Source: Fodinibius sp. Rm-B-1B1-1 (lineage in GTDB: Bacteria; Bacteroidota; Rhodothermia; Balneolales; Balneolaceae). From it: a DNA stretch of 64,000 nt. The position numbers were made by a program, and so were the translations under genes. Location of the stretch: contig NZ_JBCFYD010000002.1 in NCBI RefSeq assembly GCF_038594945.1, positions 372,001 to 436,000 of the forward strand, given 5' to 3'. A model generated the notes under the pieces. The model was not told where the DNA came from. It saw only the letters and a list, made by a program, of their open reading frames with translations, and did not search any database. The stretch's first letter is position 1, and each line of letters begins with the position of its first letter. Below are positions 3,131 to 14,765 of this stretch, one piece after another.

Positions 3131-4369
3131 ATGGAACAAACGTTACTGTTGAATCACGGGATGAGCATAGGGCTGGTTGTTATTCTTTCTTATGTGATTT
3201 CCTACATTGCAATACCGATAATTACCCGGGCGGCAGAGGCCAAGCACCTTTTTGATCATCCGGATGAGGATCGGAAGTTACATTTGGAAGCGATTCCAAC
3301 GCTTGGTGGCATTGCTATATTTTTGGCTTTTTTACTAAGTTTTTCGGTAAGTCCATGGGCTGAAGGTTTTGAGGGCTATTCCTACCTGGTGGGCGCGTTG
3401 CTTATTTTATTTTTTACCGGACTGAAAGATGATTTGGTCGTTTTGTCGGCTAAGAAGAAATTGGCGGCCCAGCTTACGGCTGCCGGTTTGGTGATCTTTG
3501 GCAGCGGGGTCATTATTGACAATTTTCATGGAGTGTTTGGCTTGGCAGAAATCTCTTATTGGGTAGCGGTGCCAGTTACGTTTTTCACGGTGATTGTGGT
3601 TATTAATGCGGTGAATCTTATCGACGGTATTGATGGACTGGCGGGAGGCATTGGAGTTTTAGCTTCTGTAATATTCGGTTCTGCCTTTTTATATGCTGGT
3701 CAGGTGCCGATGGCGATGTTTTCGTTTTGCCTGGCAGGGGCGCTGTTAGGGTTTTTATACTACAACTTTAGTCCGGCTTCTATCTTTATGGGAGATACCG
3801 GCTCGATGTTGTTAGGGTTCCTGTTATCCATACAGGCTATAGAGTTTATTGCCCTTAGCGATATCCCCGCTTTTGCTAATGTCTTTGGCAGTTCTTCGGC
3901 CATACTTCCGGTGGCTATTTTAGCATTTCCTTTGTTTGATACAATCAGAGTTATTGTAAAACGCATGCGCAGGGGCAAGTCTATTTTTGAGCCGGGACAG
4001 GATCATGTGCATCATGAGTTGCTTCGTATGGGGTTTTCGCACAGGGATGCTACGTTATTGTTATACGGTAAAAGTTTGCTTTTAATAGGCATTGTTGGGC
4101 CGTTGGCGTGGTTGGGTGTTAATCCCAATGTTCTGCTTGGTGCGGTGCTTTTTTCGAGCCTGTTGATATTCCCTACAAATGGTTGGAAGCGGGCATTGAT
4201 TTCCCGTGTTTTTGGGTACAACTGGGTGGCCTTTCGCAGTCGAAAGTGGGGCATTGAGTTTGATCAGGATAAAATTAAGCCGCTTAATGGCAATGAGTCT
4301 GAGGAATCTTTTGAGCATGTGGATAAAGGAGAAGAGGCCCGGGAAGAAGCTGATAGTGTAGCGGTCTGA
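3131..4369 (+). CDS. Undecaprenyl-phosphate sugar-1-phosphate transferase (WecA/TagO/MraY family)
   Basis: A polytopic membrane enzyme of 412 residues that would load the first sugar-1-phosphate (commonly GlcNAc-1-P) onto undecaprenyl phosphate at the cytoplasmic face. Family landmarks are in order: GLKDDL (Asp100-101), NAVNLIDGIDGLAGG (from about residue 159), FMGDTGSM (about 219-226) and the HVHH cluster (292-295). About ten hydrophobic segments are visible, followed by a soluble acidic tail of about 45 residues, longer than in WecA of E. coli. The genomic setting among wecB-, Wzi- and SLBB-type genes supports a polysaccharide initiation role rather than peptidoglycan MraY. It is followed by a hairpin with a T run. 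Confidence 0.9.
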   Translation: MEQTLLLNHGMSIGLVVILSYVISYIAIPIITRAAEAKHLFDHPDEDRKLHLEAIPTLGGIAIFLAFLLSFSVSPWAEGFEGYSYLVGALLILFFTGLKDDLVVLSAKKKLAAQLTAAGLVIFGSGVIIDNFHGVFGLAEISYWVAVPVTFFTVIVVINAVNLIDGIDGLAGGIGVLASVIFGSAFLYAGQVPMAMFSFCLAGALLGFLYYNFSPASIFMGDTGSMLLGFLLSIQAIEFIALSDIPAFANVFGSSSAILPVAILAFPLFDTIRVIVKRMRRGKSIFEPGQDHVHHELLRMGFSHRDATLLLYGKSLLLIGIVGPLAWLGVNPNVLLGAVLFSSLLIFPTNGWKRALISRVFGYNWVAFRSRKWGIEFDQDKIKPLNGNESEESFEHVDKGEEAREEADSVAV

Positions 4370-4412
4370 TTTAGTATTAAGTAGAAGGTGTTAAGTATTA
4401 AGTTTAGTTTTG

Positions 4413-4440
4413 AGGCATGTCCGGCAGGGCGTGCCTTTTT
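4413..4440 (+). terminator. Probable rho-independent terminator
   Basis: AGGCATG pairs with CGTGCCT (one G-U) around a CCGGC-containing loop and is followed by TTTTT, 44 bp after the stop of the WecA-like gene. Confidence 0.65.
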
Positions 4441-4633
4441 AGTTTAGGGCAGTTACTGAGTAACAAAGATACAGAGCTTCAAAGCGAAGCTGACGGAGGA
4501 CCGATGACGGTTTAAAAGCAGTGAATGGTGATTAGGTGATTAAGTGACAAAGTTGCAAAGAGACAGGGTAACAAAGGACTGAGGACGGGTGACCGATGAC
4601 CGTCGGGAAGGTTGTAGGTTAACTTAAAAGCAG

Positions 4634-4684
4634 TGTCATCCTGCTGTGCCCCGTCATTCGGGGAACGGAGTGAAGGATCTCCAT
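4634..4684 (+). repeat. GTCATCC...GGATCTCC block (family D), copy 1
   Basis: GTCATCCTGC, an inner CCCCG..CGGGG hairpin and AAGGATCTCC, then a GGTTCGCGTAGG tail. The same head and tail recur at 12240, and a reverse copy of the head at about 1060. It resembles the widespread REP-like GTCATCCCGAGC...GGATCT intergenic repeats. Confidence 0.65.
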
Positions 4685-4794
4685 ATAGAGGTTCGCGTAG
4701 GGTTAAATGACTGACGACTGTTGACGGTTTGGTGTTATAGGTTGAAGGTTAGGTGTTGAATGTTTGTTGAGTCACGCGTTTGTAATAAAGAGTT

Positions 4795-4824
4795 TCTCCT
4801 TTCCCTACTTGTAGGGAAGGGAGA
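4795..4824. repeat. 30-nt hairpin module (family B), copy 3
   Basis: Same TCTCCTTTCCCT/AGGGAAGGGAGA stem as copies 2 and 4, followed by the GGGATGGGTCGAGA tail and then a family A tract. Confidence 0.8.
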
Positions 4825-4846
4825 TCAAGTGGGATGGGTCGAGAAC

Positions 4847-5060
4847 GGTGAATGGTGATTAGGTGATGAAGTGAATTAAGCAGGGTCGAATGTTTGATGA
4901 CTGGGGGTGTAAGCTTCCCCATTTTTCGGACCACTCAAAACCAGTGCTTCCTATGAAAGGCTCTGTGATTCAGAAAAGGCAGGTGAAAAACTTTGTCACT
5001 CTGCTACTTTGTAACTCTGTCACTCTTCAACCTCATTACCTAATAACTGAATTACTAGGC
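4847..5060. repeat. Inverted pair of family A tracts around about 105 bp
   Basis: A forward tract (4847-4882) and a long reverse tract (4987-5060, CTTTGTCACTCTGCTACTTT and on) face each other. The spacer has no recognisable gene. The layout matches that around the four-helix-bundle gene at 13.6 kb, with a different, shorter content. Confidence 0.65.
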
Positions 5061-9728: not shown

Positions 9729-10217
9729 ATGCGATGGATCAAATCTGATGTAGGGCTTTTCTTGCTCAAAGCAGCCGGGATATACTTGTTATGGTATTGT
9801 ATCTATGAACTGTGGTTATTACCCGAGGGAAGTTTAGATCAATGGCTAACGACGAATATTGTTTCCGTTTCGGGAGGCATTTTACAATCATTCAATTATG
9901 ATGTGTATGCCACGGGGCGGTTAATTGGAGTTGGAGAGTCGGCCGGTATCTACCTGGCTGATGGTTGTAGTGGTATTGCAGCCATTGGACTTTTCATCGG
10001 CTTTGTGATTGCATATCCAGGGGCATGGGTTCCTCGCATTGCGTTTATCCTGTTCGGAATTGGCGTTATTTATATTATCAATATCATACGAATCATGGTG
10101 CTTGCAATTACTCAAGTACAGGCGCCTGATATCTTTACCGTAACTCAGGATTATTCAACTGCTGCCATATTCTATCTGGTGATTTTTGGTCTCTGTATTG
10201 TTTGGGGTAAGAAGTGA
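9729..10217 (+). CDS. Exosortase/archaeosortase-like membrane protein
   Basis: A 162-residue polytopic protein with about five hydrophobic segments. Its pattern follows the exosortase/archaeosortase family: a cysteine in DGCSGIAAIGLF (Cys80), then NIIRIMVLA with Arg121 in the next helix pair. Family members are transpeptidases that cut C-terminal sorting signals and attach the protein to an exopolysaccharide or lipid carrier, and they usually sit in polysaccharide loci, as here beside the SLBB gene. Oddity: the protein contains no histidine at all, so the His usually counted with Cys and Arg is absent; the place where it would be expected reads QDYSTAAIFY. No PEP-CTERM-like target is visible in the window. 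Family fairly sure, activity open. Confidence 0.72.
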   Translation: MRWIKSDVGLFLLKAAGIYLLWYCIYELWLLPEGSLDQWLTTNIVSVSGGILQSFNYDVYATGRLIGVGESAGIYLADGCSGIAAIGLFIGFVIAYPGAWVPRIAFILFGIGVIYIINIIRIMVLAITQVQAPDIFTVTQDYSTAAIFYLVIFGLCIVWGKK

Positions 10218-10344
10218 TTGGGTGATTAAGTTATGGAGTGAGAAAGAAACAAAGTTGCGAAGGGACAAAGGACTAGTGTTAAGTTTTAAGTGTTGGATAG
10301 GGACCGATGACGGAGGGCGGACGACCGTTATATTATCTATATCT

Positions 10345-10369
10345 CGTTACTACGCTCTGCGTTGTAACG
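10345..10369. repeat. 25-nt CGTTAC hairpin (family H), copy 2
   Basis: CGTTAC-T-ACGC-TCT-GCGT-T-GTAACG hairpin. The identity with the copy at 12146 extends about 25 bp upstream (ACCGTTATATTATC) and through AATGGA downstream. Confidence 0.8.
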
Positions 10370-10607
10370 AATGGAGAAGCATTAGCTATGTAGGTTGTTA
10401 CTTTTAAGTGCTGATCGGGGGCAGGGACGGAGGGCGGACGACAAATGACGGTTTTAATGTTGAAGGTGCGCAAACAACGTATTCCTATAGAGTAACCGGC
10501 ATTCATATTTAGCAATTGGTTGATCCACCCCAAACCCCTCCCAATAAATATGGAGGGGGCTTAAAATTGTGAAGCTGGCAAGAAAATGTCTCCCGCTGTT
10601 AAATTCT

Positions 10608-10665: not shown

Positions 10666-11982
10666 ATGGATTTTGGAAATCCCCATACATTGCTGAAAGA
10701 TCTTTTTTTGCAAGGACTTGAAGCGTGTTCCCCACAGCGGGCATTGGAGGTGTCGGTACAATTTTCGGAAGATTCTATCACTGTTGATGGCAAAAAAATT
10801 GCTTGTGATGGGCGCCCAATTTACGTCTGGGCAACGGGAAAAGCGGCCGTTCCGATGTATCAACAAGTTGCGGAATTGTTTGGCGATCGAGTTACTAAAA
10901 GCCTTGTTATTACGGGTGATGCTGGACAAGCCAAAAATTGCAGCGCTGATGAAGTTATCGTTGGGAGCCATCCTGTGCCCGATGAGTCGAGCGTACAAGC
11001 AGGTAAACAGACCGTTTCGTTTTTTAAGCAAATTCCCTCCAATGCTATTGTGCTTATCCTGATATCTGGTGGGACGTCGTCGTTGTTGGCATTTCCTGCT
11101 CACGGGATCACAGTCCGGGCATTATCAAAGTTGTTTGGGTTGCTAAACAATTCAGGGGCGACTATTCAAGAGATCAATACCGTTCGGAAGCATTGTTCAC
11201 AGATTAAAGGGGGGCAGTTATTACGGTATCTGAATAGGACCGTAACACTTATAGATTTAGCTATTTCTGATGTGCCTGGAGATGATTTATCGATTATTGG
11301 TAGTGGTCCAACAGTTCCGGATGCGTCGACCTATCAAGAAGCACATGACATTTTGTTAAGGTATGAACTTTGGGATCAGGTGTCGAAATCTATCCGAGAA
11401 CATATTAGTAAAGGTGTAGCGGGCAAGATTGATGAAACTGTAAAGCTGGGTAAAGATCCAGTAACTGAGCATAGTTCTACCATAATTAGTTCGGGCAGGA
11501 AGCTTATCCAAAAAATAGGGGATTTGGCCAAACAGAAGGGACTTTCTGTCAAGTTGTTTGATGAGCCATTCAATGCTGATGTTGAAACGGTGGTTACTAT
11601 AATTGCGGATCAGATAATGAGATTGGAAGAAGGACCGATGCTGTTTCTATTTTATGGGGAAAGTACGGTGCAGGTTACAGGTGGTGGAAAAGGGGGGCGG
11701 AATCAAGAGTTGGCACTTCGGGGAGCTATCGAAATAGAGGGACACGAAAAAATTACTTGGTTGAGTGCTGGTACTGATGGTATTGATGGACCCACGGATG
11801 CGGCGGGGGCTGTTGTTGATGGCACAACAATCATTAAGGCCAGGGAGCAAGACGTAGATCCGGAAACTTTTTTAAGAGACAATGATTCATATCGCTTTCA
11901 TCAAAAAATGGGGACGCTTTTAAAAACGGGTCCCACCGGCAATAATTTGATGGATGTGGTGATGGTTTTTGTGGATAGGTGA
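10666..11982 (+). CDS. Glycerate 2-kinase (MOFRL family)
   Basis: A 438-residue enzyme with the DUF4147 plus MOFRL layout of glycerate kinases (GckA/TtuD type), which phosphorylate D-glycerate to 2-phosphoglycerate with ATP. Visible motifs are WATGKAAVPM, the ISGGTSSLLAFP phosphate-binding loop, EINTVRKHCSQIKGG, SDVPGDDLSIIGSGPTVPD and, in the MOFRL domain, GGGKGGRNQELAL and LSAGTDGIDGPTDAAGA. I chose the ATG at 10666 over an upstream in-frame TTG at 10609 because a TATCTTTG promoter element lies between them and family homology begins at the later start. The stop is followed at once by a family A tract. It has no pathway neighbours here. Confidence 0.9.
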   Translation: MDFGNPHTLLKDLFLQGLEACSPQRALEVSVQFSEDSITVDGKKIACDGRPIYVWATGKAAVPMYQQVAELFGDRVTKSLVITGDAGQAKNCSADEVIVGSHPVPDESSVQAGKQTVSFFKQIPSNAIVLILISGGTSSLLAFPAHGITVRALSKLFGLLNNSGATIQEINTVRKHCSQIKGGQLLRYLNRTVTLIDLAISDVPGDDLSIIGSGPTVPDASTYQEAHDILLRYELWDQVSKSIREHISKGVAGKIDETVKLGKDPVTEHSSTIISSGRKLIQKIGDLAKQKGLSVKLFDEPFNADVETVVTIIADQIMRLEEGPMLFLFYGESTVQVTGGGKGGRNQELALRGAIEIEGHEKITWLSAGTDGIDGPTDAAGAVVDGTTIIKAREQDVDPETFLRDNDSYRFHQKMGTLLKTGPTGNNLMDVVMVFVDR

Positions 11983-12145
11983 TGAGGTGATTAAGTGATG
12001 AAGAAAGGCAGTTACTGAGTAGCAAAGTGACAGAGTGACAAAGTTGGAAGTGTTAAGTTTTAAGTGTTGAATGTGGGTGGTGAGTGAGGACGGAGGAGTG
12101 AGGACGGAGGAGTGAGGACGGGTGACCGTTATATTATCAATATCT

Positions 12146-12170
12146 CGTTACTACGCTCTGCGTTGTAACG
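12146..12170. repeat. 25-nt CGTTAC hairpin (family H), copy 3
   Basis: Identical core to the copy at 10345, including the flanking ACCGTTATATTATC upstream and AATGGA downstream. Confidence 0.8.
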
Positions 12171-12239
12171 AATGGAATTATTGTGATTTTGAATGTTGGA
12201 TGGAGACCGGGGATGGAGGACGGATGACCGGAAAAGCAA

Positions 12240-12272
12240 TGTCATCCCGAGCGAAGCCGAGGGATCTCCTGC
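12240..12272 (+). repeat. GTCATCC...GGATCTCC block (family D), copy 2
   Basis: GTCATCCCGAGCGAAGCCGA then GGGATCTCC, followed by GGTTCGCGTAGG and CAAATGACTGA as in the copy at 4634. A classical REP-like intergenic element. Confidence 0.7.
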
Positions 12273-12332
12273 CATTGGGTTCGCGTAGGATCAAATGACT
12301 GATAGTATTGACGGATGACGGATTTAAATGCA

Positions 12333-12435
12333 GTGAATGGTGATTAAGTGACTGAGTGCAAAGTGACATAGTAACGGAGTAAATGTTATATTGGACTTTG
12401 TTACTTTGTAGCTCTGTGTCTCTGTCACTGCCCTA
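12333..12435. repeat. Empty inverted pair of family A tracts
   Basis: A forward tract (12333-12379, GTGATTAAGTGACTGAGTGC and on) faces a reverse tract (12394-12435, CTTTGTTACTTTGTAGCTCT and on) with only 14 bp between. It could fold into one long imperfect hairpin. It looks like the flanks of the four-helix-bundle element without cargo. Confidence 0.7.
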
Positions 12436-12507: not shown

Positions 12508-13542
12508 ATGATTTGGCAGGACGGTATTTATTTGTGGTTTTTACTGGTCATTCCCCTTCTGTTAGCGGCCACTTGGTGGTATAACAAGAAGCTGGCCAAG
12601 AAACGGGAGAATTACTTTGGTTCGGAGCTTTTTGAAAAGTTGCGACAGGGATTTTGGCCCAGTGGTAAGCGCATCCGTATGGGGAGTTTATATCTGGGTA
12701 TTGCTTTACTCATTATTGCAGCTGCCGGTCCTAAGATTGGGACAGAGGTCCGTGAAGTGAAACGCCAAGGGGTCGACCTGCTTATTGGTTTGGACCTTTC
12801 TGACAGTATGAATGCTGAGGATGTAAAACCAAGTCGGCTCGAAAAGGCTAAGTACGAAATTTCAAGACTTGTTGATCGCCTTAATGGTGATCGGGTTGGT
12901 TTGGTGGTATTTACTGGAGAATCATACCTGCAAGCACCGATGACATTGGATTATTCGGCTATGAGATTGTTTTTGAATATCGCTGAGACTGACCAAATGC
13001 CTTCGTCATCAACGAACTTTAGTGCGGCGATGAAAACGGCTTTTGAGGCCTTTGAATCAAATGAGCAAGATCAACAGGAGGGAGACGCGTCAAAAGTGTT
13101 TATGATTATTTCTGATGGTGAAAATCACGGGGAAAGTTATGAGGAGGAACTTAATCAATTGTTGGCGCAAAATGTGTCGGTATATACGTTGGGAATCGGA
13201 ACGGAATCGGGCAGTACTATTCCACTCTATGATAACAGCGGTTCGATGTTTGGGTATAAGCGTGATCAGGATGGGAAGGTGGTCACGACGAAGTTGCAAT
13301 CCAATGTGTTGCGTTCTATTGCTGAGCAGGGGAATGGTGAATATTATGAGATTCGAAATGGGGGTTCGGGTATTGATCGTTTCTTAGGTCGACTGGATGA
13401 GCTGCAACAGGGAGAGTTTTCGAGCCAAGAGTATGCTGATTTCAAAAATCAGTACCAGTGGCTGGCTGGTATCGGATTGTTGTTTGTTTTTATGGGAATG
13501 GTATTTCCGGAGTTTAAAATTGGTGAGAGTAATAGAAAGTAA
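12508..13542 (+). CDS. VWA-domain membrane protein, BatA/BatB-like
   Basis: A 344-residue inner-membrane protein: N-terminal helices at about 8-25 and 57-74, a von Willebrand factor A domain, and a C-terminal helix at about 316-332. The MIDAS metal site is intact: DLSDS (Asp96, Ser98, Ser100), a Thr in the SSSTNFSAAM loop and SDGEN. This matches BatA/BatB of the Bacteroidota aerotolerance operon, where such proteins pair with a MoxR ATPase and a DUF58 protein. Here it is alone; the MoxR gene of the window is 21 kb away. ATG start at 12508. The reading frame ends 4 bp before the left arm of the inverted repeat that encloses the next gene. Confidence 0.85.
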   Translation: MIWQDGIYLWFLLVIPLLLAATWWYNKKLAKKRENYFGSELFEKLRQGFWPSGKRIRMGSLYLGIALLIIAAAGPKIGTEVREVKRQGVDLLIGLDLSDSMNAEDVKPSRLEKAKYEISRLVDRLNGDRVGLVVFTGESYLQAPMTLDYSAMRLFLNIAETDQMPSSSTNFSAAMKTAFEAFESNEQDQQEGDASKVFMIISDGENHGESYEEELNQLLAQNVSVYTLGIGTESGSTIPLYDNSGSMFGYKRDQDGKVVTTKLQSNVLRSIAEQGNGEYYEIRNGGSGIDRFLGRLDELQQGEFSSQEYADFKNQYQWLAGIGLLFVFMGMVFPEFKIGESNRK

Positions 13543-13574
13543 CTGAGTTGCAAAGTGACAAAGTAACAGAGCAG
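13539..13574 (+). repeat. Left arm of the four-helix-bundle element
   Basis: A family A tract. AGTTGCAAAGTGACAAAGT at 13546-13564 is a perfect 19-nt reverse complement of 13982-14000. Confidence 0.85.
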
Positions 13575-13604
13575 AAAAACAATATATATCTAATTAGGAG
13601 AGTT

Positions 13605-13955
13605 ATGAGTACTTTCAGAGATTTGAAAATTTGGCAGAAATCGATGGATCTGGTTACTGATATTTACCAAAAAACAGAAGGATTTCCTGATTCGGAGAAA
13701 TATGGTTTGGTTTCACAAATCAGGAGATCAGCTATTTCGATACCTTCAAACATTGCAGAAGGGTATGGCCGAAATTCGAATGGAGAGTTTCAGCGTTATT
13801 TAAATATTTCAATGGGATCTTTATTTGAGCTTCAAACCCAGATTGAAATTGCGCAGAACTTGGAATATTTCAATGATAATGAGGGAGGAAAGATGTACGA
13901 ATTGAGTCGTGAAATAGAACGAATGTTAAGTAGTTTTATAAGAAGTATAGAATAG
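13605..13955 (+). CDS. Four-helix-bundle protein (S23/IVS type, Avd-like fold)
   Basis: A 116-residue protein of the family found as the ORF of 23S rRNA intervening sequences and as stand-alone genes (TIGR02436). It shares its fold with Avd, the accessory protein of diversity-generating retroelements. The signature pieces are FRDLKIWQKSMDL, SIPSNIAEGYGR and FQRYLNISMGSLFELQTQI. I start it at the ATG at 13605, which has GGAG 5 bp upstream; an earlier in-frame TTG at 13548 lies inside the repeat arm. Perfect 19-bp inverted repeats flank the gene. The function of stand-alone members is unknown; nucleic-acid binding is suggested for the family. No reverse transcriptase is seen nearby. Confidence 0.85.
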   Translation: MSTFRDLKIWQKSMDLVTDIYQKTEGFPDSEKYGLVSQIRRSAISIPSNIAEGYGRNSNGEFQRYLNISMGSLFELQTQIEIAQNLEYFNDNEGGKMYELSREIERMLSSFIRSIE

Positions 13956-13960
13956 TATTA

Positions 13961-14000
13961 CTGTTAACTTTGTTACTTTCAACTTTGTCACTTTGCAACT
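13961..14000 (-). repeat. Right arm of the four-helix-bundle element
   Basis: Reverse-oriented family A tract of five 8-bp units (GTTAACTT, TGTTACTT, TCAACTTT, GTCACTTT, GCAACT). Its last 19 nt mirror the left arm exactly. Confidence 0.85.
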
Positions 14001-14006
14001 AATGCC

Positions 14007-14765
14007 ATGATAAAACTTTTTATTACTGATCTCGATGGGTGTATTTCGACCCCTTTTAAAACGCCAGAGTGGGATTTGCTTTCCCAAATTCGTCGGCTGA
14101 ATGAGCAAAGTTCTCATGATATGGCCGTGCCTTCACTCTCGATCTGCTCGGGACGTCCATTTCCCTATGTAGAAGCCGTTGCACAATGGCTGGGAATAAC
14201 GAATCACGTGGTGTTCGAAAGTGCAGGGGTTTTTGAGCTTGCATCCAATACTATAAAGCTGCACCCTTCATTTGATGACGAAGCGGAATTGCAGGTCCGT
14301 GAGCTTAAGCAGTGGCTGAATAATGAGATTGTTCCCCTTGATGATAATTTCATTATTGAATTTACCAAGAAAATGGATGCCGGAATTATTCATTTGGATA
14401 CCGAGGTTATCCAAGAAATTTATCCACGTATTAAAGAGTATGTAAGTGACAATTATCCCCGGTTTGAAGTGCACGACACGGATGTCTCGATCAATATTGT
14501 GTTATCAGAAAATAATAAGCGTACAGGTATTCACCAGCTTTGTGAAATTATGGACCTATCACCTGACGAGGTAGCTTATATAGGGGATAGTAGTGGGGAT
14601 ATTCCCGGGCTGAAATTTGTGGGAAAACCCTTTGCGCCGAAAAATGCGGCAGAGTCTGTCAAACGAGAAGCAGAAGTGCTTGATGGGGAAGTTACGAAAG
14701 CAGTTTTGGAAGCCTATCGTCAAATTATACGTGAGAATAGAAAGAAGCTGGCAGCGGCGGGATAG
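14007..14765 (+). CDS. HAD-superfamily sugar phosphatase (IIB type)
   Basis: A 252-residue cytosolic hydrolase. The nucleophile motif is at the N-terminus (ITDLDGC, Asp8 and Asp10), followed by a Ser-containing SICSGRP motif, a type IIB cap, a Lys in SENNKRTG, and IGDSSGDIPGLKFVGKPFAPKNA as the metal-binding motif near the C-terminus. It resembles Cof-like and phosphoglycolate phosphatase-like members that remove phosphate from small metabolites. The substrate cannot be read from sequence. Its start lies 6 bp after the right arm of the four-helix-bundle element, so that insertion may separate it from a former promoter or from the VWA gene. A family A tract follows its stop. Confidence 0.82.
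   Translation: MIKLFITDLDGCISTPFKTPEWDLLSQIRRLNEQSSHDMAVPSLSICSGRPFPYVEAVAQWLGITNHVVFESAGVFELASNTIKLHPSFDDEAELQVRELKQWLNNEIVPLDDNFIIEFTKKMDAGIIHLDTEVIQEIYPRIKEYVSDNYPRFEVHDTDVSINIVLSENNKRTGIHQLCEIMDLSPDEVAYIGDSSGDIPGLKFVGKPFAPKNAAESVKREAEVLDGEVTKAVLEAYRQIIRENRKKLAAAG

Follow-up and report, generated by a model that had tools for sequence, protein, structure and literature searches.

The 64,000-nucleotide stretch of contig NZ_JBCFYD010000002.1 of Fodinibius sp. Rm-B-1B1-1 analysed here (hereafter the window) carries, between a VWA-domain gene and a HAD-family gene, a small S23 gene of the kind found in 23S rRNA intervening sequences (IVSs), enclosed by inverted arms of short tandem repeats. 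The feature is probably a very small mobile element in complete form, with the order arm, S23 gene, inverted arm. There is sequence evidence that this anatomy exists and recurs, that the unit can be present, missing or replaced at orthologous sites, that identity between species is raised over the gene or the unit, that arm and protein covary, and that the protein is under purifying selection. Since the S23-arm unit is found in many bacterial groups, where it varies in presence and is exchanged, it has the appearance of a tiny mobile element. The best reading, which we consider a likely one, is an element of the IVS type that lives mostly outside rRNA and whose pentameric protein probably reads the repeat array. 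The parts of the unit and its two neighbors are the following.

13536..13571, plus strand: left arm of degenerate 8-nt units (AAAGTAAC-type), AG strand towards the gene; overlaps the final codons of the VWA gene and its stop
13546..13564, plus strand: core of the left arm, perfect 19 nt (repeat search)
13605..13955, plus strand: S23 / 23S rRNA-intervening-sequence-protein gene (PF05635, TIGR02436), 116 aa (profile matches; solved homologue 2gsc)
13965..14000, minus strand: right arm, 8-nt units inverted (repeat search; Tandem Repeats Finder, TRF)
13982..14000, minus strand: core of the right arm, perfect 19 nt (repeat search)
12508..13542, plus strand: VWA-domain host gene, left of the site (open reading frame, ORF, and Pfam)
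14007..14765, plus strand: HAD-family host gene, right of the site (ORF and Pfam)

An initial annotation of this DNA had described an S23 gene within perfect 19-bp inverted arms of 8-nt period, and repeat search, TRF and profile matches confirm this. The cores at 13546-13564 and 13982-14000 are 19 nt long, 100% complementary and spaced 417 nt apart, and the inverted-repeat search also returned pairs in shifted register, at 15 nt (87%) and 12 nt (92%). TRF reports the 8-nt period at 13536-13568 and 13965-14000. The gene starts with an ATG at 13605, behind an AGGAGAG-like ribosome-binding site seen by eye, and its stop codon ends at 13955; the protein matches PF05635 with E 8e-41 and TIGR02436 with E 6.4e-39. 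The VWA gene ends at 13542, inside the left arm, and 6 bp separate the right arm from the start of the HAD gene at 14007. In the predicted fold of the 477-nt RNA, the arms pair on either strand (z -3.9 and -4.6).

Are such arms a general property of S23 genes? PF05635 matches occur in 77 of the 92 genomes of the window's bacterial family, with a maximum of 16 per genome, and in 193 of 247 sampled Bacteroidota genomes; the source genome has five, one partial and one with a stop. Loci were taken as the best-scoring PF05635 matches, which makes them a non-random sample, and each upstream flank was compared with the reverse-complemented downstream flank of the same locus and scored against mismatched flanks. 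In a first set from the family (93 of 94 copies; L065 was dropped for a short flank), the gene's own flanks exceeded the 95% level of mismatched flanks in 47 of 93 cases, and regions 250-400 bp further out did so in 1 of 93. A Bacteroidota-wide set began with 182 copies, of which 167 remained once short flanks and duplicates had been removed; 124 of these served as representatives less than 80% identical. Inverted arms exceeded the 95% level in 33/63 family copies and in 33/61 copies from elsewhere in Bacteroidota, as against 4/63 and 10/61 for a direct-orientation control. An arm score of at least 25 was reached by 65 of the 124 S23 representatives and by 0 of 61 other genes (p 2.9e-15), the latter chosen without matching for spacer length. 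Homologues are thus flanked by arms more often than other genes are, and the first of the two outcomes that would have refuted the initial annotation did not occur. The 8-bp period proposed for them holds at the window unit; elsewhere the period is mostly 7, with a best arm lag of 7 in 101/118 cases and of 8 in 14/118; arms match themselves at a rate of 0.618 with lag 7, and at 0.23-0.30 with any other lag between 3 and 12. The arms also have a polarity: by AG versus CT counts, the left arm is AG-type in 61 of the 65 Bacteroidota pairs, CT-type in 1 and tied in 3. The S23 protein itself is under purifying selection, the ratio of nonsynonymous to synonymous substitution (dN/dS) ranging from 0 to 0.28, with 20 of 21 values under 0.17 (21 of 22 pairs were usable, and one of six groups yielded no pair).

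The unit is not a fixed part of the genome. Among 12 congeneric species, the VWA-HAD site holds an intact S23 gene in 5 and a 5'-truncated one in 1 (G009), so that the gene is present in 6/12; fixation at this site in all relatives, the second outcome that would have refuted the initial annotation, is thus not observed either. These genes encode two protein types. By eye, two of the remaining congeners have a tract only and four are bare. Three forms occur even in the three closest species on a VWA tree, where G019 has the window type, G018 the tract only and G013 the second type; the fork inside this trio has weak support. In a different genus of the family, represented by L050-L053 and L064, the VWA-HAD spacer has an apparently unrelated ORF of ~500 bp, seen by eye, at the place of the unit.

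Exchange is seen at other sites as well. In another genus, within flanks that are ~91% identical, L013 has a different arm-gene-arm unit from L024, L069, L070 and L082; a second site in that genus has arms of a single kind around differing genes (L091 versus L034, L074, L075 and L076). Eight of nine chosen pairs were compared in 100-bp bins. The gene, the 100 bp before it and about 50 bp after it are 99-100% identical between L108 and L112, whereas 16 of their 17 flank bins are at 85-98% and one gapped bin is at 58%. L034, L074 and L075 are 98-100% identical across the gene, with flank bins at 87-100% and arm bins that are not raised. Four other pairs have no clear contrast over the unit; L106/L113 rise mildly in the gene, and L093/L117 are higher upstream. 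Synonymous divergence of the gene at one site runs from 0 (L108/L112) to 0.49 (L108/L115), and the raised gene identity is therefore a matter of exchange rather than constraint. Recombination between arms can account for part of this exchange.

The same structure is found in other phyla, through a repeat that had been described on its own. Heptamer repeats of cyanobacteria, Beggiatoaceae and Bacteroidetes were reported in 2015; for the TAACTGA direct repeats among them, a regulatory role was suggested, with no evident transfer mechanism (PMC4679880). These TAACTGA repeats are the arm units of S23 genes in Microcystis, a Nostocales genome and Vibrio salinus, and the main text of PMC4679880 contains neither "four helix" nor "S23". 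A scan of genome contigs for four tandem TAACTGA units gave at least 111 stretches, and among those listed three have an S23 gene close by, with the array about 30-200 bp away. The array lies on both sides of the gene in the Nostocales genome, downstream in Microcystis, where the upstream arm is made of a variant unit, and upstream in V. salinus. Of the genomes searched among the listed TAACTGA matches, 23/24 have S23, the exception being a metagenome-assembled genome (MAG) of Parabeggiatoa; these phyla have no matched baseline. In a multi-phylum set drawn from these genomes, inverted arms exceeded the 95% level in 25 of 27 usable S23 loci (of 30 listed), and the direct control did so in 1 of 27. 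To judge from record titles, these loci belong to cyanobacteria, Chloroflexi, Verrucomicrobia, an acidobacterial MAG, Gracilibacter, Bacteroidetes and Vibrio. Their left arms are again AG-type (23/25, with 1 CT-type and 1 tied).

Microcystis offers the most detailed picture. At a first site in 12 species-level genomes, with flanks ~94-98% identical, conserved arms enclose an S23 gene in 6, non-coding cargo A in 2 and non-coding cargo B in 2; one genome has the right arm only, and one has a left-arm stub followed by other sequence. In G432 and G433 (L378, L369), the alternative cargo contains a GTAGGATGGGTTAGC...AACCCAACCTACG palindrome, which is perhaps a dispersed repeat in its own right. At a second site, a 92-97% identical unit is present in at least 8 of the 12 genomes (the best 25 candidates per genome were scored), with flanks that align among the 8 and an arm copy number that ranges from 2-3 to over 20. 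The initial annotation had proposed arm, gene and arm as the complete form of a mobile unit. That proposal gains from the finding that the unit is recurrent, swapped and replaced, and it loses exclusivity in that gene-less arms also bracket other cargo (4/12 in Microcystis).

A different explanation is that the arms are passive, slippage-prone tandem repeats which the S23 protein does not recognize and which turn certain spacers into tolerant hot spots of recombination; S23, as a gene with a host function, would be a cassette exchanged after DNA uptake by homologous recombination between short repeats. The wide variation of arm copy number between close strains, the different cargo held by the same arms in Microcystis, replacement boundaries that lie in or near arms, and the low dN/dS values would all fit such a scenario. 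Conversely, passive repeats would not be expected to be complementary or to point their AG strand inwards as consistently as they do (61/65). We regard this explanation as unlikely, though deserving serious attention, and further evidence against it comes from Vibrio and from the comparison of arms with proteins.

In Vibrio, S23 occurs in 27 of 99 genomes, and inverted arms are found at 18/28 usable loci (of 30), with the direct control passing at 5/28. The unit of V. salinus is located between radC and the L28 gene. Three tandem TAACTGA units occur in 1 of the 99 Vibrio genomes, that of V. salinus, and there solely as the left arm of the radC-L28 unit, a restriction that speaks against passive repeats. 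At the corresponding site in relatives, 14/14 bracketed loci have a short spacer without the unit (19 loci in total, 5 of them not bracketed). By coordinates, S23 lies beside the radC-rpmB spacer in six Vibrio species (G425, G373, G402, G346, G405 and G331), and this spacer may be an insertion hot spot.

Units are also carried by plasmids. Among named plasmids, 42 records matched, and 11 of 12 loci have inverted arms with scores of 28-60, two near-copy pairs being included. Some units separate cas6 from cas4 or Cmr2 from Cmr3, others follow a TraM-domain gene, and the usual annotation of the PF05635 gene on these records is "four helix bundle protein" or "S23 ribosomal protein". Plasmids of Anabaena sp. 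90 and Picosynechococcus PCC 7003 (L429, L433) have S23 units in the same sense between CRISPR genes (cas6/cas4; Cmr2/Cmr3). A search of phages gave no match, and the DNA of the V. salinus S23 gene gave none against E. coli genomes. In Flavobacterium columnare, "phage element" regions include a four helix bundle protein between genes for guanylate kinase and NMN/NaMN adenylyltransferase (PMC5524665); this gene may belong to a unit of the same kind.

What relates a given arm to a given protein? The initial annotation treated the arms as one family, whereas many types are found: AGTNNTG, AGCTNTC, AGATNTA, AGAATTC, AAAGTNAC, GTGATTAA and others. Arm type tracks protein clade. Across 71 loci with an arm score of at least 24 (2356 between-genus pairs, including orthologous sites shared between genera), arm similarity correlates with protein identity (Spearman 0.255), a value reached in 0 of 2000 permutations. 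Such covariation across genera speaks against arms that are passive. It can be followed at the VWA-HAD site itself, where the window-type protein has AAAGTNAC arms and the second type, 43-53% identical over the matched part, has GTGATTAA arms (G017, G012). In G013 the right arm alone is plainly GTGATTAA-type; AAAGTAAC units form part of a mosaic left flank.

S23 might itself be the enzyme that mobilizes arms in trans, in the manner of repetitive extragenic palindromes (REPs) and their REP-associated tyrosine transposases (RAYTs), systems to which the initial annotation had compared the unit. RAYT is a Y1 transposase, and S23 is a four-helix bundle without known catalysis. The presence of up to 16 S23 genes per genome together with many lone arms would suit such a role, as would the recurrence, seen by eye, of three S23 arm types of the source genome (AAAGTNAC, AAGTGTT, GACCGNT) as lone tracts in the window. 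Against this, the S23 four-helix fold is not known to have a catalytic motif, and the GTGATTAA tracts of the window have no S23 of that type among the five matches of the source genome. A comparison of arm type with protein type across genomes also failed to give a type-specific association. AGCT arrays do accompany AGCT-type S23 (at least 60% identity to L033, with a 56-residue fragment in G012 left out), occurring in 10/13 genomes with it against 17/76 without (p 2.5e-4). With the same split of genomes, the AGTNNTG pattern occurs in 13/13 against 44/76 (p 0.003); since it co-occurs as well as AGCT arrays do, the association in trans is not type-specific and was rejected as such. AGTNNTG arrays occur in 1 of 15 family genomes without S23 versus 56 of 74 with it, the 15 not being independent because 11 of them come from two genera. 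A control with the reversed pattern was uninformative, because a periodic pattern is almost unchanged when read backwards. We consider it very improbable that S23 is a mobilizing enzyme of this sort. AGCTNTC arrays without a close S23 of matching type were seen in G066, G045, G072, G061, G046, G010 and G071, some of these genomes being incomplete.

One unit lies within rRNA. In L332, from a Gracilibacter MAG, the S23 gene is inside a 23S rRNA gene and in the same sense as the rRNA, which is recovered as a single Rfam match of 3098 bases to 2675 model positions. The insert begins in a hairpin loop at model position 1218, which we take to be helix 45, the classical IVS site, and its arms consist of AGAAGTC-type heptads. 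Because L332 has both an S23 gene and heptad arms, at least one rRNA IVS shares the build of the unit, and the anatomy that the initial annotation proposed as new did not originate as a novelty of this lineage. A second rRNA-borne unit was not found among the S23 loci collected. The window unit and IVSs have in common the protein family, complementary ends and a gene in the loop (PMC4990558). They differ in location: IVSs are inserted in a helix of 16S or 23S rRNA, the window copy lies between VWA and HAD genes, and most units adjoin protein genes rather than rRNA. IVSs are cut out of the transcript by RNase III and the ends are not religated; the corresponding feature of the window unit is its predicted stem. 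The 7- or 8-nt periodicity of the arms and the exchange of units between sites are not described for IVSs in the available text of PMC4990558.

How might the protein and the arms work together? The S23 protein is a homopentameric torus (PMC4990558), and the homologues 2gsc and 2rld in the Protein Data Bank have five chains each. The median number of units per arm is 4.7 for 67 left arms and 4.6 for 59 right arms in Bacteroidota, 5.1 and 5.4 in the multi-phylum set, and 4.4 and 4.9 in Vibrio. With ~4.6-4.7 units per arm and a pentamer, one subunit per repeat unit is arithmetically possible, and we offer this as a suggestion. In the mechanism we propose, an arm would consist of about 4-5 tandem units of 7 or 8 nt with the AG strand inwards, and the S23 pentamer would read this array with roughly one subunit per unit, its target probably being the arm as a hairpin or a single strand. 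S23 would thereby mark the ends of the unit, and a host or other enzyme acting in trans would carry out the movement. Insertion could be tolerable owing to the location of the unit, in the spacers of operons or in loops of rRNA, since a transcript hairpin may be cut out or ignored there. The S23 gene is co-oriented with both neighbors at 74 of 124 loci and opposed to both at 18, which fits read-through expression.

The same numbers admit a reading by analogy with TRAP, which binds GAG repeats: the S23 ring would bind the AG-repeat leader of its own mRNA, the right arm would only close a hairpin or terminator, and the genes would have spread by ordinary horizontal transfer. A left arm that immediately precedes the gene and has its AG units in phase, the match between about 4.7 units per arm and a pentamer, and the bias in gene orientation could all be explained by such autoregulation. 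However, some arms have no gene and others enclose non-coding cargo, and regulation alone would not produce unit-sized replacement or the presence of the unit at several sites. Autoregulation as the whole explanation is accordingly improbable, if slightly less so than an S23 enzyme.

Several observations weigh against the unit as a mobile element whose protein reads the arms. First, the survey has its limits beyond the selection of loci and the unmatched control genes already mentioned: 59 of the 124 S23 copies have no arm pair above the cut-off, and direct repeats pass in 10 of the 61 copies from outside the family. Second, arms are not uniform. Those of Vibrio lack the AG polarity (9 AG, 6 CT), some have drifted, for example at site 2 of Microcystis G431, and in L427 (NZ_CP112875.1, a Pseudanabaena galeata plasmid) the S23 gene between cas6 and cas4 has AAAGCTA-type heptads in direct orientation. 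Third, the evidence for movement is mixed. The gain in V. salinus is not clearly single, because five other Vibrio have S23 beside the same spacer; a contrast in identity over the whole unit is found only in L108/L112 among the eight pairs binned; no clear target-site duplication was seen by eye at empty sites, where arms blur the edges; and the unit swaps could be homologous recombination, transposition itself being unobserved. Fourth, strong purifying selection could equally indicate a host function, and the association of arms with S23 in trans is, as noted, shared by a pattern of another type. Fifth, mismatches in the arms have no asymmetry, with 82 that are G-U-compatible against 90 of the opposite kind (p 0.59); without a G-U excess, a gene-strand RNA hairpin as the selected form is unsupported.

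Periodic tracts are also present elsewhere in the window. With one threshold for all lags (16 of 24, since 19 of 24 lost degenerate arms) and a tighter low-complexity filter, tracts of lag 7 and lag 8 each occur at 0.73 per kb of intergenic DNA (7 and 7 tracts in 9.6 kb). The remaining lags between 5 and 13 reach 0 to 0.10 per kb in the spacers, and lags 7 and 8 reach 0.018 per kb in coding sequence. In the first 15 kb, 14 overlapping copies of the main octad family are distributed over seven places, one of them the S23 unit, and more octad families or inverted copies lie at 4448, 4833, 4989, 12318, 12391 and 14754. Taken together, the main family and these further copies make the earlier count of at least eight other tracts a fair one; the 7-nt tracts, which went unmentioned, are equally common. 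The following tracts illustrate arms without an S23 gene.

4522..4565, plus strand: octad tract of GTGATTAA and AAAGTGAC types, no S23 gene (lag scan)
4989..5031, minus strand: octad tract of opposite sense, ~420 bp beyond the 4522..4565 tract (lag scan)
11967..12050, plus strand: octad tract without an S23 gene (lag scan)
12038..12130, plus strand: heptad tracts of several types (AAGTGTT, GAGGACG/GACCGNT), beside octads (TRF, lag scan)
12391..12430, minus strand: octad tract of opposite sense, possible partner of 11967-12050 (lag scan)

More tracts and a dispersed sequence fill the interval between the first two. By eye, gene-less arms bracket non-coding cargo at 4350-5060 and 11967-12430. 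These two regions and 10205-10470 are mosaics of arm types (octads, AAGTGTT and GACCGNT heptads) around dispersed sequences, TATCTCGTTACTACGC... and GGTTCGCGTAGG..., each of which has 2-4 copies in the first 15 kb. The mosaics look like nested gene-less units with non-coding cargo.

How does the unit compare with other small elements? REP/RAYT systems and REPINs likewise have short inverted repeats beside a small gene and many gene-less copies (PMC3733652), and within the window the inverted repeats of the unit also occur without a gene. The arm, however, is a tandem array of 7- or 8-nt units rather than a REP palindrome, and Pfam gives only PF05635 and bAvd for the S23 protein, with no Y1/HUH tyrosine transposase. 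PF05635 proteins and Avd of diversity-generating retroelements are structurally homologous (PMC10053308). By profile the window protein is related to Avd below the cut-offs, with E 6.9e-6 for Pfam bAvd and E 2e-5 for NCBIfam Avd (NF033474, 24.8 bits against a curated cut-off of 80). Unlike a diversity-generating retroelement, the unit has no reverse transcriptase beside it, its direct neighbors being the VWA and HAD genes. Terminal inverted repeats are shared with miniature inverted-repeat transposable elements and insertion sequences. The heptad literature also covers the short tandemly repeated repetitive sequences of cyanobacteria, small mobile repeats and the tRNA-Leu intron. By their description, the GGGNATC repeats of Xanthomonas and Nostoc are similar too: they are heptads, intergenic, located between aligned ORFs and preferentially of four units, with inverted pairs in Xanthomonas and few in Nostoc (PMC4692102). 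They were interpreted as G-quadruplex repeats, and the text of PMC4692102 does not contain "four helix", "intervening" or "S23". A literature search, from which subscription papers were mostly out of reach, found no published link between S23 and heptad repeats.

A broader view is possible, and we put it forward tentatively, as somewhat short of an even chance. Scattered heptad and octad arrays (TAACTGA, some cyanobacterial heptamers, probably GGGNATC, and the stems of rRNA IVSs) may be the ends of one pan-bacterial family of minimal mobile elements. The S23 pentamer would be the only protein of this family, recognizing its own array with about one subunit per repeat, and moving, or being moved with, any cargo between two arms.

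PF05635 proteins are stated to "have no known function" (PMC4990558). The link between S23 and heptads gives both the protein and the repeats a testable role, in a mobile unit of ~0.5 kb that has no transposase and in which the ends and the protein diverge in concert. The resulting natural pairs of protein and repeat may be useful for the study of how ring proteins read repeats. The unit looks like an account of some repeats that have long been unexplained and, if this reading is true, rRNA intervening sequences would be one branch of a wider element.

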